Source: Vibrio halioticoli NBRC 102217 | GTDB taxonomy: Bacteria > Pseudomonadota > Gammaproteobacteria > Enterobacterales > Vibrionaceae | Assembly (NCBI RefSeq): GCF_000496695.1 | Contig: NZ_BAUJ01000005.1 | Span: 1 to 64,000 of the forward strand | Direction of reading: 5' to 3' | DNA length: 64,000 nucleotides | Shown: positions 18,579-24,251 of the stretch, piece by piece | How positions within the stretch are numbered: position 1 is the first letter of the stretch | Layout of the letters: the number at the start of each line of letters is the position of its first letter | Translations under genes and position numbers: made by a program | Notes under the pieces: generated by a model | Databases searched by the model: none | Told to the model about the DNA's origin: nothing | The model's input: only the letters and a program-made list of their open reading frames with translations

Positions 18579-18669
18579 GGAGAGATGGCTGAGTGGTCGA
18601 AAGCACCGGTCTTGAAAACCGGCAACCGTTAATAGCGGTTCTAGGGTTCAAATCCCTATCTCTCCGCCA
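18579..18669 (+). tRNA. serT: tRNA-Ser(UGA), with encoded CCA
   Basis: The acceptor stem GGAGAGA pairs with TCTCTCC, then G discriminator and encoded CCA (18667-18669). The anticodon loop CTTGAAA (18611-18617) gives anticodon TGA, reading UCA. A long variable arm (ACCGTTAATAGCGGT) typical of serine tRNAs and a GGTTCAAAT T-loop are present. The 3' part serves as the integration site of the island that follows: a degenerate copy of its last about 28 bases recurs at 23850. Confidence 0.97.
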
Positions 18670-19039
18670 CATTTAACGCCCTGATTTATCAGGGATTTTT
18701 CCGTTTCTGAGTCCCTGAAAACGCTCTGGTGAGTCAATCAGGTGAGTCAATGTATCTATATAAAAGTCGTCATTACGTCTATTTCGTCCGCGTTTGTACC
18801 CCCAAAGCACTTGTACAGCAAGGCTATCCGTTCGACTTTAAATTCAGTCTAAAAACCAAATCTCGTCCTATTGCCATCAGGCGAAGTGCGCCCATTATTT
18901 CTCAAATTCTAAAATCCCTAGATAATGTGGATATATCTAGGGATTCACCTAAAGAAACCAAACAAGCAATACTGAGCCCTGTAGACTCACTCCGAAATTC
19001 ATTTAACGACTCTGGGGTTGAGCTTCACTCTTTTTCATC
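18643..19039 (+). repeat. Island left direct repeat (tRNA 3' end plus integrase 5' end)
   Basis: From the T-arm of tRNA-Ser to codon about 97 of the integrase this stretch is almost identical to 23850-24233. Differences are a 13-bp tandem duplication (GGTGAGTCAATCA type) just before the integrase start in this copy and a handful of substitutions, most in the tRNA-derived part. It marks attL of the island. Confidence 0.88.
18679..18700 (+). terminator. Terminator after tRNA-Ser
   Basis: CCCTGA-TTTA-TCAGGG hairpin followed by ATTTTT. The same hairpin recurs next to the right-hand repeat (about 23888), with one extra paired base. Confidence 0.75.
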
Positions 19040-19490
19040 TCAAGCAGATACAAAGCAACAAACCGTCAAATCAATTAAACGAAACTTTGCTCAAGGGTAT
19101 CGTTGGCAAGAAGAATTCATCACGTCGAAACAAAAAGCGCGGATCACACACCTAACCGTCCATCAGTTAAACAAACGAACCCTTTATTTCCTTGATTACT
19201 TCAAAAATAAAAAAATCAGTATTACTCAGATCACCGCTTCGGATTTGATGGAGTTTGGGAGCAACCTACAGTCATGGGATAAAAGCGCCAAAACCAAGAA
19301 GGACTTTTGGGGGGCAGCAAAACAATTTTTGAAATGGCTCACTCTAAAACAACACTTTCCTCGAAACCCTTTTGAGGGGTTAACTGTTACGTTTAAATCT
19401 GAGAAATTTGCATCTGAACAAAGAGAAAAATGGTCTAGTAAACAGATTAAAAACCTACTCTCCCATACGGCTTTGTTGATCTCATCTTGA
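18750..19490 (+). pseudogene. Tyrosine recombinase/integrase, N-terminal part (disrupted)
   Basis: The 246 codons from ATG 18750 cover the arm-binding and core-binding domains of a P4/phage-like tyrosine integrase (DUF6538-like beginning MYLYKSRHYVYFVRVCTP, then SAM-like TASDLMEFGSNLQSWD). The catalytic domain is missing: the frame loses homology at about KWSSKQIKNLLSH and runs out shortly after. The C-terminal half, with its catalytic Arg and His-x-x-Arg, is found as a decayed fragment at 21237-21608, with an AbiE-type toxin-antitoxin pair in between. The gene sits 81 bp from tRNA-Ser, the usual place for the integrase of a tRNA-inserted element. Confidence 0.85.
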
Positions 19491-19525
19491 TTGATGAATG
19501 CGGCATGAAATGATACTCAAATAGA

Positions 19526-20479
19526 TTATATTGTTTTAATTAGCGATTCTGCTACGTGTTTGAAAGAGACAAAGCAGGTATCAAAATCATGAGGCTCAGT
19601 GTTAAACACCATAGGGGTAACAAAGTCTTGAAAGCGTTGTCGAAAAACTGGGTTTTCTTCAAGCTCTTTCAGCCCGAGCTGTAGCTCTTGTTTAGGATGG
19701 GAGACGAACTCTGCATGCTGATTACCAAAACGCTCAACATCTTCTTCCAACACCGTTTTAAATAACGGTGTTAGTGTTTTCAGAACGAGGTGATCAGTCA
19801 GTTCCTCAGCCTTCAAAATGCAGTAAACATCATAGATATGTCGTACTAACGTGGCGTCATCCTTACGCTGTGCATTTCGCTTAACTGACATGGTACGGCG
19901 CAACATTGAAATCACTTTTTCAACCAAGGTTGCATGGGTCGAGACGCAATCAAACACCTCCACTTCTTGTGGTTGTTTATATAACTCCGAAACCAATGAT
20001 TGAATGCTGCGAGCTTCTACATCAAGTAATGGGATAGTCTCCATCAATTCCAGCTTAATAATGGGGCGAAGACATGGTGCTTGACTAAACTGCTGAGGGT
20101 ACCTGAGTTCAAGTTCAACATAGCGATACTCATCACGAACTATTCGCGACTCAACGGTGAAACGCTCTGATCGAGTGATCACTTGCTCAACCTCTTTAAT
20201 GCATACCTTACGAGCCGCTTTCTTTTTGGCGCGACTTAACTCATCAAACGCTGGTTTCGGTATCAGTTTAATGTCTACGTCTTCTGACATTCTAAGAATT
20301 TTAACATTGGACTTTGCTAGAGCAGTCCCGCCAGAAAAGACCATTTGATGAGAATTAGGCTTCATTTCAGCTAGATCAGACAGTAGCGCAACGACCCAGT
20401 AATCTTTTTCAATAATGGCTGGGTTTCCGAGTTCAAGTGCATCGGAAGCCTCAAGAAATTGTTGTTTTAATTTTTCCAT
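19526..20479 (-). CDS. AbiEii/AbiGii-type nucleotidyltransferase toxin
   Basis: 317 residues. The nucleotidyltransferase fold is shown by FSGGTALAK (Gly50-Gly51-Thr52) followed by SEDVDIKL with Asp67 and Asp69, the metal-binding pair; IEKDYWVV lies ahead of it and RHIYDVYCI further on, both typical of this family. Characterised AbiEii toxins arrest growth, and related enzymes add nucleotides to tRNA acceptor ends; this has been used against phage. It starts 1 bp from the end of the antitoxin-like gene upstream. The pair interrupts the island integrase, so it arrived after the element did. Confidence 0.88.
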   Translation of the reverse strand: MEKLKQQFLEASDALELGNPAIIEKDYWVVALLSDLAEMKPNSHQMVFSGGTALAKSNVKILRMSEDVDIKLIPKPAFDELSRAKKKAARKVCIKEVEQVITRSERFTVESRIVRDEYRYVELELRYPQQFSQAPCLRPIIKLELMETIPLLDVEARSIQSLVSELYKQPQEVEVFDCVSTHATLVEKVISMLRRTMSVKRNAQRKDDATLVRHIYDVYCILKAEELTDHLVLKTLTPLFKTVLEEDVERFGNQHAEFVSHPKQELQLGLKELEENPVFRQRFQDFVTPMVFNTEPHDFDTCFVSFKHVAESLIKTI

Positions 20480-20480
20480 A

Positions 20481-20885
20481 TTAACTCGGCGAGTTTAATA
20501 CCCGGTTACCGACAGCCAATTTGCGATTAAACTGTTTGGGGTTCCATGAGTATTGAACAGAGGATGGGATTTGGGTACTTTCTCCTGATAAGCTTTGCAA
20601 AGATAGGCTGTCCATTTCAAAATCGACACCTTTCATCTTTAATATCTCACGCATCAGGGCATCACTTCCGCCTGGGTTCGTGGGCATCGGTCTTCCGGTT
20701 AGGCTGTTAATGCGGGCTTTGGTGTACAGTCCATAACCAAGTTTTATTAACTCGCCTTGCTTAACCAGTTGCCTTAATGCACGACCGATTTGATCGTAGC
20801 TAGCAAAACCATCAAAGTCTTTACGCTCAAAAACATAGCGTCTGGAGCGCTTTATCTTTTGAAAAACACGATCAACTGCTGTCAT
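20481..20885 (-). CDS. AbiEi/DUF6088-type antitoxin and regulator
   Basis: 134 residues. The N-terminal half looks like a winged helix (YDQIGRALRQLVKQGELIKLGYGLYTKA), the DNA-binding part of AbiEi-type antitoxins, which also repress their own operon. The C-terminal half is short compared with classic AbiEi, closer to the DUF6088 family. ATG at 20885 has a strong AGGAGG site 7 bases upstream. A palindrome at 20902-20938 overlaps the expected promoter. The toxin gene follows directly. Confidence 0.8.
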   Translation of the reverse strand: MTAVDRVFQKIKRSRRYVFERKDFDGFASYDQIGRALRQLVKQGELIKLGYGLYTKARINSLTGRPMPTNPGGSDALMREILKMKGVDFEMDSLSLQSLSGESTQIPSSVQYSWNPKQFNRKLAVGNRVLNSPS

Positions 20886-20901
20886 TTGAACCTCCTAACT
20901 T

Positions 20902-20938
20902 TCATAAGTGTTGCTAGTATAACGCAACCTTATTATGA
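20902..20938. promoter_or_regulatory. Candidate operator of the AbiE-type pair
   Basis: An imperfect inverted repeat: TCATAAGTGTTGC on the left faces GCAACCTTATTATGA on the right. It sits 17 bp upstream of the antitoxin start. AbiEi-type regulators bind inverted repeats in their own promoter, so an autoregulatory role is likely but inferred. Confidence 0.4.
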
Positions 20939-21090
20939 CAGGAAGAAATACGGCATACTCAAATAATAAAATACGGCAATACAAAAAGTAATGAATACCA
21001 TAAAACATTGTTTTATAGGTATTTATGTTAATACAGTTAAAAATGACCTCTATATAAAAAATACGACAAGATAACTGTAACTCTATCCCC

Positions 21091-21216
21091 TCAGAGATGT
21101 TCAGAGCGTCCTATTTCTACGCTTAGATAATGAATGGTATTATCCAACTTCCCATGGCCAAACAATAATTGCACAGCCCGAATGTTTTGGATCAGTGTCG
21201 CCTTGGTGCGGCGCAT
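21091..21216 (-). pseudogene. Fragment of a second tyrosine recombinase (C-terminal)
   Basis: On the minus strand the frame reads MRRTKATLI, then RAVQLLFGHGKLDNTIHYLSVE and ends at TGA (21091-21093). This is the hallmark end of a tyrosine recombinase: H-x-x-R-like HSMRRTK, GH (here FGHGKLDNT) and the catalytic Tyr in HYLSVE. Only about 50 codons remain, with readable frame extending somewhat upstream of 21216. It is unrelated to the plus-strand integrase pieces and shows that another element once occupied this place. Confidence 0.7.
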
Positions 21217-21236
21217 GGAATGCCACTGCCACTTCG

Positions 21237-21608
21237 CATTACAAGAAACAATCAGAGCGGTTTAAAATGGATCACCTTCTTGATGATCTTTTATGGATGC
21301 CGACCTTCTGAGGTATACCAGTTGAACGTAAGAGACATCAATCTGGACTCCGAACAGCCAACAATCAAATTTACCAACCTAGGAAGCAGTCAGAGGCTTA
21401 ATGCTACGGGATATAGGGCTGGTGAGCGAGCAACCGCTTACTCTTTTCGTCATACTTTTATCGATATGTTGAAGAACATGTAGTGGCGCAGATCGTTGGA
21501 CATAAACACTAATCAATGACTTTTGGTTGATACGACAAAGCACTCCAATATAAACATCTAGTCGAGGCAATAACGAAGTTCGAGCTTGGTGATCTTGCGC
21601 TCATATAG
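21237..21608 (+). pseudogene. Island integrase, C-terminal catalytic part (frameshift and stops)
   Basis: LKWITFLMIFYGCRPSEVYQL holds the first catalytic Arg and AYSFRHTFID the His-x-x-Arg of a tyrosine recombinase. The frame stops after LKNM (TAG at 21481). In the next frame the expected sequence resumes as VVAQIVGHKH, a stop, SMTFG, a stop in place of the Arg before the catalytic YDKAL, and then KHLVEAITKFELGDLALI to TAG at 21606-21608. It therefore carries one frameshift and two nonsense codons. It is probably the severed end of the gene that starts at 18750. Confidence 0.8.
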
Positions 21609-22037
21609 TCACCCTCCTTGAACAAACATTCTAAATATTTACACTTTTCTAGCGATAAAGATGAACAATAACAGCGAGCAAGAGAAGTACCGCTTAGCTT
21701 CCTAATACATCATTATGCTTCGCTGGAGCCAATAATGAAGGAGCTTGAATCCCGTTGTATAAAAATGGCTTGTTTTATCTAGAGTCCAGTCTCATTTTGT
21801 CAGTAGAATATTTAGTAAGTTATTGTTAAGCATAGGATTAGCACTATTCACCTCTAAGATAATGAGTATTGTTAAAAAGTGATAACACGCAAGCTCATTT
21901 TTACGTAAATGCAGAGTGCGAAAGGTGATATATATACATTATATTTCATTGGGTTATGGTACCTTTAATGAAAATTAAGCAAACAGAAAAACGAGCAGGC
22001 CTGTTATTAACAATGTTAAAAGTATTGAGGAAGTTTC
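21609..22037. other. Gene-free stretch inside the island
   Basis: 429 bp, AT-rich, with no credible gene. A GTTAAGC at about 21826 fits the integron core-site pattern GTTRRRY and could be the left edge of the cassette that carries the next gene, but this is weak. A ribosome site (GAGGAAG) precedes the gene at 22038. Confidence 0.35.
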
Positions 22038-22733
22038 GTGGCTGATTACATAAATAAAAACATTCTTAGTCAGGCGTATATTCATGTTGAACCATCGGGA
22101 ATTGAAACTAAAGAACAGCTTGAAGCGTTCAAAGAAAGCATAAGAGCTTTTGCGTTAAGTCGTACAGAGTTTTTTTTATCCGAAGGGCTTGATATAAATA
22201 TTGAGTTTGAAGAAGGGTCGATTAAAACACGAGTAACTGTTATCGGTACATTAATGCTTCTACTACAAGGCATTAGCTCATACAAAGATTTTAGAGAAGG
22301 TCTTCAACTGCTCTATTCGGATTCAAAGTGGTTGTCAGATGCAATCATATCGGAGTCTTTGTATCAAACCAAAGCGAAACACCATGATGTCATTCGGGTT
22401 GAAGCTAGGACTGGAATAATTGGCTCTGTTCATAAGGTATTGAATCAGCTAGAAAGAATTAAAAGTGGCGCAAACGGCGCGATGCTTGCTTCCGACATTG
22501 TTGAAAAAGTTGATGATGTTCAAGATGAACTATCAAGATTAATGGACAACATCTGTGACTTAAATGACCGCAACTTAGTCGCTAAAGAGTGCAAATATTT
22601 GGTTCAAGAATTACCAGAGATACCAGTACCTCCGAAAGATAAAACCAATAGCAATCATGCTATCAACAAATATCGACGCAAAAAGTCTACACTCAGCTCC
22701 TTTATAGATATTCATATGATTGTCGAAGAGTAA
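22038..22733 (+). CDS. Hypothetical cassette-borne protein with a central hydrophobic segment
   Basis: 231 residues, family not recognised. Residues 45-60 form an acidic stretch ending EEGS, followed by a hydrophobic segment (TVIGTLMLLLQGISSY, about 65-82) and FREGLQLLY. Residues 110-190 look helical with possible coiled coil (VEKVDDVQDELSRLMDNI), and the tail is basic. The start is assigned at 22038 (GTG) behind GAGGAAG. The gene is followed 13 bp later by an attC site, so it is most likely an integron-type cassette. A membrane-active or defence role is possible but is only a guess from layout. Confidence 0.6.
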   Translation: MADYINKNILSQAYIHVEPSGIETKEQLEAFKESIRAFALSRTEFFLSEGLDINIEFEEGSIKTRVTVIGTLMLLLQGISSYKDFREGLQLLYSDSKWLSDAIISESLYQTKAKHHDVIRVEARTGIIGSVHKVLNQLERIKSGANGAMLASDIVEKVDDVQDELSRLMDNICDLNDRNLVAKECKYLVQELPEIPVPPKDKTNSNHAINKYRRKKSTLSSFIDIHMIVEE

Positions 22734-22746
22734 GGTGAAAGCATAC

Positions 22747-22844
22747 TGTTAACAAACTGCTTAAAGGGACAAAAACGCTCGGCATTATCGCTTTCAAGCG
22801 AAATTTTACGCCAAACGTTTTTGCCATTTAGCAGGACGTTAGGC
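22747..22844 (+). repeat. Integron attC recombination site
   Basis: About 98 bp. The right arm ends in GTTAGGC (22838-22844), matching core site GTTRRRY, and the left arm starts TGTTAACAAACTGC. The two arms pair over most of their length, for example CAAAAACG (22769) with CGTTTTTG (22816), and TGCTTAAA with TTTAGCA. This is the pattern of Vibrio attC sites. It ends the cassette with the 22038 gene. Confidence 0.75.
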
Positions 22845-22874
22845 ACCAAAGTAATTTAACGTACGAAGATTGAT

Positions 22875-23401
22875 ATGAATTCAGAAGAATACCTAAAACA
22901 ATTAGTTGAAAAGAGAAAAGCTTTGAGAAGTGAGCTAGCAAAAGAATCAGATAGAGGTTGTGCATTGTATGCGACATCATATATTGATTCTGCACTGTCT
23001 GATCTTTTGTACTGTGCTCTTGCTACGGACAAAAAAATCGAGAAAGAGTTGTTTGACGGTACTGCGCCACTTTCAACATTCTCTGCAAGAATAAATATGG
23101 CGTATTATTTGGGCAAAATATCAAAAGCTGAAAAACTGACTTGAACGTCATAAAAAAGATTCGAAATCAGTTCGCTCATGTCGCAACTCCTATGGATTTC
23201 AATTCAGAAAAAATACCAGATCAGTGTAAGGGGCTATCTCTGTCTTATCATGAATCAACGATATCTCCGAGAGAGCATTTCACTGCCGCTATTCTTGGTC
23301 TGCTAGGGCGCATCAACGCAGAAACTTTAAAATGCGAAGCACCTGAAATTAAGGTTGATAATACGCCGTCCAAAGATGATAAAGAGCAGTTTCGAGCCTA
23401 A
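22875..23401 (+). pseudogene. MltR-family protein, split by a frameshift
   Basis: Two reading frames, 22875-23144 (89 codons) and 23141-23401 (86 codons, nominal TTG start), overlap in TTGA and together give the about 175 residues of MltR-like proteins. Frame one holds RGCALYATSYIDSALSDLL and FDGTAPLSTFSARINMAYYLG; frame two resumes with VIKKIRNQFAH, which in intact members follows on within one polypeptide. A single-base indel near 23135-23142 explains it. MltR is the mannitol-operon repressor of enterics, but cassette-borne relatives need not regulate mannitol. The gene lies between two integron core sites, GTTAGGC (22838) and GCCTAAC (23438). Confidence 0.8.
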
Positions 23402-23437
23402 ATACATACAGCAATTAATGAGTTGTTTGTAAACGGT

Positions 23438-23480
23438 GCCTAACAAACCTGTTTAAGAGTGCTTCGCGATGCATGGCATT
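23438..23480 (+). repeat. Truncated integron attC site
   Basis: GCCTAACAAACCTGTTTAAG begins as the left arm of an attC (RYYYAAC core), followed by GCATGGCATTTTTAC, typical of Vibrio attC loops. The matching right arm with GTTAGGC is not found downstream, so the site has been cut. Confidence 0.6.
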
Positions 23481-23849
23481 TTTACTATACATTTTGCTCT
23501 ATTCTGCGAAGTTGTAGTTAACTCGACGATGAAAGAATCGGATTGTCTTCATACCACACCTTCTTAAGGGCTCGAAGAATCTAGAGAGTCAAGAGAGGCT
23601 TCTCTTGCCCGCAGCTCATATTGCATCTTTTTCGGAGAAAAAGTGCAATATGAGCTGCGGGTTACCATTGTTTTGCGACAAGGCAAGCTTATCGCAAGTA
23701 TCAATGTGGATCGGTTGTAAATGACTACTAAATTTTTTGGCAAATCCGCAAAAAATGACCTTTAATATGTACTTGACAAATACACTACTTTGATTTTTGA
23801 AATCAGTCGTAAACAATTGTAATTACAGTGCTTTTTAAGAGTGACCTTT
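23481..23849. other. Non-coding stretch between the truncated attC and the right repeat
   Basis: About 370 bp. The only clear structure is the long hairpin at 23608-23661, with a small one (AAGAGA-GGCT-TCTCTT, 23590-23605) directly before it. No credible gene. Confidence 0.45.
23608..23661. repeat. Long near-perfect hairpin
   Basis: An 18-bp arm (CCCGCAGCTCATATTGCA) is perfectly repeated in inverted form at 23644-23661. Inside it CTTTTTC (23627-23633) pairs with GAAAAAG (23637-23643) around GGA, with one unpaired T. Together this is a 25-bp stem. No T run follows, so it is not a normal terminator. It may be the tip of a mobile element, a remnant attC-like fold or an RNA structure. Confidence 0.8.
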
Positions 23850-24233
23850 GGGTTCAAACTCCTATCTCTCCACCACATTTAAAGCCCTGATTTATCAGGG
23901 GCTTTTCCGTTTCTGAGTCCCTGAAAACGCTCTGGTGAGTCAATGTATCTATATAAAAGTCGTCATTACGTCTATTTCGTCCGCGTTTGTACCCCCAAAG
24001 CACTTGTACAGCAAGGCTATCCGTTCGACTTTAAATTCAGTCTAAAAACCAAATCTCGTCCTATTGCCATCAGGCGAAGTGCGCCCATTATTTCTCAAAT
24101 TCTAAAATCCCTAGATAATGTGGATATATCTAGGGATTCACCTAAAGAAACCAAACAAGCAATACTGAGCTCTGTAGACTCACTCCGAAATTCATTTAAC
24201 GACTCTGGGGTTGAGCTTCACTCTTTTTCATCA
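23850..24233 (+). repeat. Island right direct repeat (degenerate tRNA 3' end plus integrase 5' end)
   Basis: Near-identical to 18643-19039. The tRNA part has drifted (for example AACTCCT for AATCCCT and CACCA for CGCCA) while the integrase-coding part differs by only a few bases. It marks the right junction of the island, or the left junction of a second related element inserted in tandem. Confidence 0.87.
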
Positions 24234-24251
24234 CAACCGGTCACTCACTGA
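23943..24251 (+). pseudogene. Second copy of the integrase N-terminus (truncated)
   Basis: 102 codons identical to the start of the integrase at 18750 except for one Pro-to-Ser change, up to about residue 97; then PVTH and a stop. Everything after the arm-binding domain is missing and unrelated sequence (the convergent gene at 24266) follows within 15 bp. It is a relic of a second integrase gene whose body was deleted. Confidence 0.85.

Follow-up and report, generated by a model that had tools for sequence, protein, structure and literature searches.

Translocation is one idea on the origin of stray gene cassettes, and insertion at attG, a genomic G^TT border without an attI, was reportedly described by Loot et al. 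in 2024. Loci made up of attC sites and genes without an integron integrase gene (intI) are treated as CALINs or SALINs by IntegronFinder and in passages of a Shewanella survey (PMC9229058). As stated in passages of the IntegronFinder 2.0 paper (PMC9024848), a CALIN needs at least two attC sites and attI is not detected outside class 1, so a locus that keeps an attI of another type would be called stray. For class 2 integrons, excerpts of PMC12901181 quote a length of about 311 bp for attI2; the same excerpts describe Delta-attI-type gene cassettes of classes 1 and 2, in which a partial attI replaces the attC behind the gene.

The locus described here lies in the window, the whole stretch of 64,000 nucleotides of Vibrio halioticoli NBRC 102217 DNA that was analyzed. 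It holds, in this order, an attI copy, a first cassette with a complete attC, and a second cassette with a broken gene and a truncated attC. In kind it is the remnant of a class-2-like integron that is without integrase but retains its attI, and we conclude that positions 21757 to 23495 are very probably a decayed integrase-less copy of a mobile Vibrio integron.

Cassettes, attC sites, and island setting

The features of the locus, with positions in the window, are as follows.

18579-18669, + strand: tRNA-Ser (TGA), the island insertion point (Rfam tRNA match)
18644-19043, + strand: left copy of a long direct repeat, spanning the tRNA 3' end and the first part of the island integrase gene; 94.75% identity to its partner at 23850-24236
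18729-19490, + strand: N-terminal part of a broken island integrase, DUF6538- and phage_int_SAM_1-like, both below the Pfam cut-off
21169-21483, + strand: likely C-terminal remnant of the island integrase, motif judged by eye, no Pfam match
21757-22015, + strand: attI copy of a class-2-like Vibrio integron, intI absent; similarity to the copy on contig C56 extends to about 21741
21880-22009, + strand: inverted repeat within attI, TGATAACACGC..GCTCATTTTT / AAAAACGAGC..GGCCTGTTATTA
22015-22016, + strand: inferred crossover AATG^TTA, end of attI and start of cassette 1
22016-22838, + strand: cassette 1; left border from a homologous cassette in genome G137, right border from R' of attC1
22038-22733, + strand: gene of cassette 1, 231 aa, no Pfam family at E 0.001
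22747-22844, + strand: attC1, R'' TGTTAAC, R' GTTAGGC (22838-22844), from fold and covariance model
22839-23444, + strand: cassette 2, ending with R'' of its cut attC, from sequence
22875-23144, + strand: N part of the cassette 2 gene, 89 aa, frameshifted; homologues of 32-47% identity in five other genomes
23141-23401, + strand: C part of the cassette 2 gene, 86 aa, an ORF
23438 to about 23495, + strand: attC2, left half of a VCR-type attC, remainder missing; R'' GCCTAAC (23438-23444)
23850-24236, + strand: right copy of the long direct repeat listed at 18644-19043

An earlier note, made from the sequence of this stretch, had proposed an attC of Vibrio type at 22747-22844, to be checked by folding its bottom strand. 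The site is a real attC: its bottom strand has a fold energy of -21.2 kcal/mol, the mean for shuffles being -11.55 (z -4.07; none of 200 shuffles did as well), and a covariance model derived from 16 attC sites in another genome (G137) matched exactly 22747-22844 on the minus strand, over all 126 model positions (38.4 bits, E 7.9e-8). The second, cut attC that the note had placed from 23438 onward was also recovered, as the R'' element at 23438-23444 and a left half that runs to about 23495. The covariance model gave it a weak partial match only (23471-23493, E 0.31); the stretch matches the R'' side of five G137 attC sites at 79-88% identity and 50- to 70-bp pieces of Vibrio plasmids, which are candidate attC sites, at 82-90%. 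The cassette 2 gene had been called MltR-like: the label is weak, since similarity to the MltR family (PF05068) is confined to the N-terminal piece and its E of 0.18 falls below the cut-off. The gene is interrupted by a frameshift between its two ORFs.

Cassette 1 thus has the layout of an integron gene cassette, a gene followed by an attC with a folding bottom strand and borders at G^TT; cassette 2 has half of its attC left. We conclude that both are true integron cassettes. The cassette region had been taken to start at 21822; cassette 1 starts at 22016, and 21757-22015 is the attI copy. A TIGR02249 search of the whole genome gave no integron-integrase match on the window contig (C105), which agrees with the note's statement that no integron integrase is near and means that a complete integron, with a functional intI in cis, is absent there.

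The remnant island that holds the cassettes and the attI copy is flanked by the two direct repeats (18644-19043 and 23850-24236), each with the 3' end of tRNA-Ser and the beginning of the integrase gene, in agreement with the note's placement of the cassettes in a tRNA island. The island integrase at 18729-19490 is not an integron integrase. An AbiEii/DUF6088 pair (19526-20885, minus strand) sits between its N part and its likely C part, and the integrase looks split (18729-21483), as though interrupted by insertion of this toxin-antitoxin module. A second remnant of the same integrase start, at 23943-24251, follows the second tRNA 3' copy, an arrangement of two tandem islands at tRNA-Ser. Between the cut attC and the island border is a near-perfect 54-bp palindrome (23608-23661), whose sole other match in the genome is its own reverse strand; the neighboring stretch 23516-23645 has 78.5% identity with a Photobacterium entry from the plasmid collection.

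The note had also suggested a search for the same cassettes in Vibrio superintegrons. Matches to the cassette 1 gene were found in five other genomes of the 148 searched, two of them weak; identity was 90% in G140, 89% in G126, and 53% in G137. The G137 homologue sits between two full attC sites in an array of 16 attC sites in 13 kb, so this search did find a relative of cassette 1 in an array. The homologous G137 cassette begins at an attC G^TT, and its start, G^TTAACTGTATTTGGAGAA..TTGGCTGATTACATAAATAAA, resembles that of the window, G22015^TTAAAAGTATTGAGGAA..GTGGCTGATTACATAAATAAA (cassette 1 start TTAAAAGTATTGAGG..GTGGCTGATTACATAAATAAA); the left border of cassette 1 is therefore the right end of the attI copy. 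The G140 homologue (L067, 7222-8055) has an attC behind it (54.4 bits) and stands alone among other genes, without this attI, so that such cassettes do occur away from attI, a point in favor of the earlier note; it is a candidate off-site cassette. Neither an attC nor this attI was found at the G126 homologue. On two further V. halioticoli contigs, C70 and C81, attC sites (L017, 4604-4701; L018, 4007-4104) are 83% identical to parts of attC1, with no attI copy in the 8-9 kb around them; these are candidates for true off-site or decayed cassettes.

The attI copy upstream of cassette 1

A DNA search of the V. halioticoli genome with the 260-bp sequence directly upstream of cassette 1 (21757-22018) gave ten further matches. 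Nine were aligned with the window copy, leaving out the weakest, on C86; the alignment, of ten copies from eight contigs, shows agreement as far as AATG^TTA (or a variant of this motif) and divergence beyond it. On contig C37, a 9145-bp stretch 100% identical to the V. halioticoli plasmid pIAM14596, an intact divergent integron integrase gene (389 bits to TIGR02249, cut-off 265) has the repeat immediately upstream, as does a broken one on C36. The V. gangliei plasmid pVgang holds the repeat twice, each time between an annotated integron integrase and the first cassette; the arrays that follow (L182, 20-60 kb) carry arr, dfrA15, and aadA13 in one case and qnrVC7 and fos in the other. Passages of PMC10782965 mention pVgang and leave its integrons undescribed. 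Since the repeat lies between integrase and array on C37 and twice on pVgang, we identify it as the attI region of a mobile integron. A position between a divergent intI and the first cassette is found for C37, both pVgang copies, two copies in G106, and those in G074 and G083, the window copy being without intI; the shared sequence ends at G^TT and is followed by different cassettes. In the five copies with a whole intI reading, the start codon lies 319-320 bp from the GTTA end, or about 317 bp from the crossover.

Because the attI copy lies directly upstream and cassette 1 starts at its G^TT, the parts stand in the order usual for an integron, with only intI missing, and off-site integration is not needed. 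This bears on the central proposal of the earlier note, that the cassettes had moved out of the superintegron into the island by off-site integration or recombination. The attI copy directly upstream and the lack of any long array seen in the genome, where 150 of 1656 attC candidates were scored, speak against the first part, and the coincidence of the cassette 1 border with the attI end, AATG^TTA, against off-site integration. Signs of decay in the window are the absence of intI and of the start of the unit, the frameshift in cassette 2, the cut in attC2, and a right end that was not found. Neither an intI remnant nor a right end was found at the window copy, and we infer the loss of intI there from its relatives.

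By this reading, the cognate IntI would have joined the folded attC bottom strand of circular cassettes to the double-stranded attI at G22015^T22016. Its source may have been in cis, while the gene was still present, or in trans, for example the copy on the strain's own plasmid; with the usual order of insertion, cassette 2 would have entered first and cassette 1 last. A larger mobile DNA would have brought the attI and its cassettes to the island, with later loss of intI, the right end, and one half of attC2. One count goes against this explanation: sigma-70-like promoter matches in 21600-23900 number one, against a shuffle mean of 6.9. Literature searches returned no report of recombination at this attI.

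Three other identities for the repeat were tried and rejected. As to an IS91-like transposon end, Y2 transposase matches in the genome amount to one fragment of 32 positions, on C79; a MITE within cassette 1 is set aside because the repeat is the intI-attI region; and as an attC-like folded site the element has a fold z of -2.77, but its two-sided pair changes do not rise above those of shuffles.

Copies of the attI region in Vibrio and their origin

A search of 148 Vibrio genomes for the attI sequence, in which no more than five candidates were scored per genome and which therefore gives minimum copy numbers, found it in 30. Four of the 148 have an intI of 85% identity or more to that of C37 (G000, G106 with two, G074, and G083 with a broken one), and 89 have intI matches at E up to 1e-60, mostly at 40-48% identity. 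What goes beyond the ordinary is how often this attI occurs in Vibrio without intI, and no description of intI-less attI copies spread over Vibrio genomes was found in literature searches.

We assembled 67 copies, a chosen set and no census, from the stronger attI matches, whole stretches of G020, G095, G032, and others, nine further copies from the V. halioticoli genome, and pVgang, counting twice-fetched loci once; weaker matches (mostly below about 65 bits) and G020:C39, G066:C50, G104:C1:2156654, and G021:C3:936205 were left out. An element model of 262 positions was built from 24 of them. Position 260 or beyond is reached by 65 of the 67 copies, and by 42 of the 43 outside model building; in alignments of the copies, nothing is shared past the model end at 262. 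An attC in cassette orientation (matches at E up to 0.01) lies within 4 kb downstream in 44 of 67 copies and upstream in 7. The 23 copies with no attC within 4 kb downstream, some on contigs that end early, count against the preferred reading. Where at least 1800 bp were available on each side, an attC was found downstream in 36 of 58 copies and upstream in 5, and no attC was oppositely oriented; given the relatedness of the copies, the binomial p of 8e-7 for the downstream bias is a guide only.

By a cut of E 1e-6, applied up to 1.7 kb upstream where sequence exists (some copies, such as L059 at 302 and L220, have little), intI beside the 67 copies is full or nearly full in 7, in some cases broken, is a 5' or partial remnant in 7, and is absent in 53. 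Two copies in L062 share one remnant and are both counted among the 7, and one of the 53 copies scored as lacking intI (L061) retains a 17-residue remnant. In V. halioticoli itself, intI matches at E up to 1e-60 are confined to C37 and C36. Among the best 150 of 1656 attC candidates in this genome, at least 17 attC sites are spread over 11 contigs, with three or fewer per contig (another is on C92), and no long cassette array was seen. Contig C36 of G020 (L059, L060) shows nine attI-region matches on one strand, several of them weak and left-truncated, within about 28 kb of cassette-like genes; no integron integrase was found in G020 at E 1e-60.

How the copies without intI arose can be read in more than one way. 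One reading, a serious candidate if somewhat short of an even prospect, is that each is an ordinary mobile integron, brought in by a plasmid or island, whose intI then decayed where it stood. The 7 copies with remnants and the 7 with a full or nearly full reading, some broken, fit such decay, but in 53 of 67 no intI passes the cut although attI is well kept, and several left flanks without intI are common to different species, which suggests that the intI-less forms themselves spread.

A second explanation, which we hold tentatively, is that these copies are non-autonomous mobile units: they would have their ends in common with the unit that bears intI, would have lost that gene by internal deletion, and would depend for movement on a recombinase acting in trans. 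A left block with a GCCCC motif lies 1391 to 1419 positions before the attI end in intI-bearing copies and is found again in many intI-less copies, mostly at -400 to -440. The copies on C79 and C36a are 89.9% identical over about 402 bp and diverge both leftward and to the right of AATG^TTA. A right-end sequence, which in clear cases begins at the G^TTACTTTCC of the last attC, follows the cassettes in 15 of 67 copies, 8 of them at loci that built its model and 7 at loci outside it. Against such units, no transposase or recombinase is tied to the ends, no empty site was resolved, and in pVgang and G088 similarity runs left past GCCCC, so that we claim no exact terminus; the window copy, with neither end, says nothing on unit ends. 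Insertion borders were also sought at serS-bioA, but the relatives there are too distant to show them. Just left of GCCCC in both pVgang copies (L182, left of 4945 and 27391) is a stem of the GGCAGCG..CGCTGCC type, which G088 (L038) partly matches; the stem may be part of the real left end of the unit. Two candidates were rejected here. IS256-type transposase genes lie left of two copies and have 14-bp inverted repeats around them, but nothing links these to the unit ends, and a composite GTCC...GCCCC target site occurs once in the V. halioticoli genome, as does its reversed control.

A wider proposal, which we regard as unlikely, is that of a distributed integron, in which intI-less attI-cassette units would be mobile landing pads, loaded in trans by a plasmid IntI and spread non-autonomously. 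V. halioticoli has one intact integrase of this type, on the plasmid, and eight of the ten attI copies examined, which lie on eight contigs, have no intI in the upstream stretch available. If true, a distributed integron would explain a good part of the stray cassettes (CALINs) in Vibrio.

It is highly improbable that the conserved segment is a gene-less cassette downstream of an older attI, with its attC-like inverted repeat now serving as attI. The repeat at 21880-22009 folds with a z of -2.77, a score equaled by 3 of 200 shuffles; in G032 (L062, 4073-4378), 5 bp separate the end of a normal attC from a left-truncated copy; and sequence upstream of intI2 gives a weak collinear match to the first part of the segment (9.4 bits, E 5.5e-4 in 1.9 kb, bias 10.5). 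However, such an abutting attC was seen in 1 of 67 copies only, and the stem is 92.0% paired mainly through conservation, its two-sided changes being reached by 137 of 500 shuffles; somewhat raised values were seen for cells paired (13 of 500) and for the covariation score (22 of 500).

Least credible of all is insertion by IntI at a noncanonical genomic site (attG) with the 260-bp sequence as an unrelated repeat. In its favor are the literature precedent, the lone attC sites of similar sequence on C70 and C81, and the cassette 1 homologues in G140 (90% identical, with attC and without attI) and G126 (with neither). Against it, the 260 bp correspond to the intI-attI intergenic region of a genuine integron and end where the crossover lies, which places an attI copy at the border.

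Comparison with known integron types

The preferred reading, a decayed integrase-less copy of a mobile Vibrio integron, can be set beside four described systems. With the Vibrio superintegron the locus shares its attC type, and the cassette 1 family occurs in the 16-attC array of G137 (array on contig C2, intI match on C1); unlike a superintegron, V. halioticoli shows no long array among the best 150 of its 1656 attC candidates, and no IntIA-type integrase was found in its genome. Delta-attI-type gene cassettes, as described in the excerpts of PMC12901181, resemble the present copies in that partial attI copies lie within arrays, as on contig C36 of G020; the partial attI stands in for attC behind a gene there, whereas here a long attI lies upstream of the genes and at many sites.

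In the terms of the passages cited for CALINs and SALINs, the window has attC sites and genes without intI, one attC complete and one cut; at one full and one half attC it is at best a borderline CALIN. It differs in keeping its attI, and was therefore probably built at a legitimate platform. The attI family can be recognized by sequence, so the question of stray cassettes becomes testable, and here the "stray" pair sits at an attI. Resistance cassettes occur in the same integron type on the V. gangliei plasmid, and chromosomal landing pads used in trans, if real, would be an uncounted reservoir.

The fourth system is the class 2 (Tn7-type) integron. Among the matches listed in the plasmid search, the class-named integrase nearest to the cognate IntI is IntI2, at 61% identity; the cognate IntI is encoded outside the window, whose own copy, unlike a class 2 integron, has no intI2 and no other intI. 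In one class 2 record, 217 bp separate sat2 from the intI2 match, so that an attI2 of 311 bp does not fit there; the sequence match to the Vibrio attI in that record is weak, and both observations count against the preferred reading. The distance from crossover to intI start is about 317 bp here against the quoted length of about 311 bp for attI2 in the excerpts of PMC12901181, and both sites end in ATG^TT.
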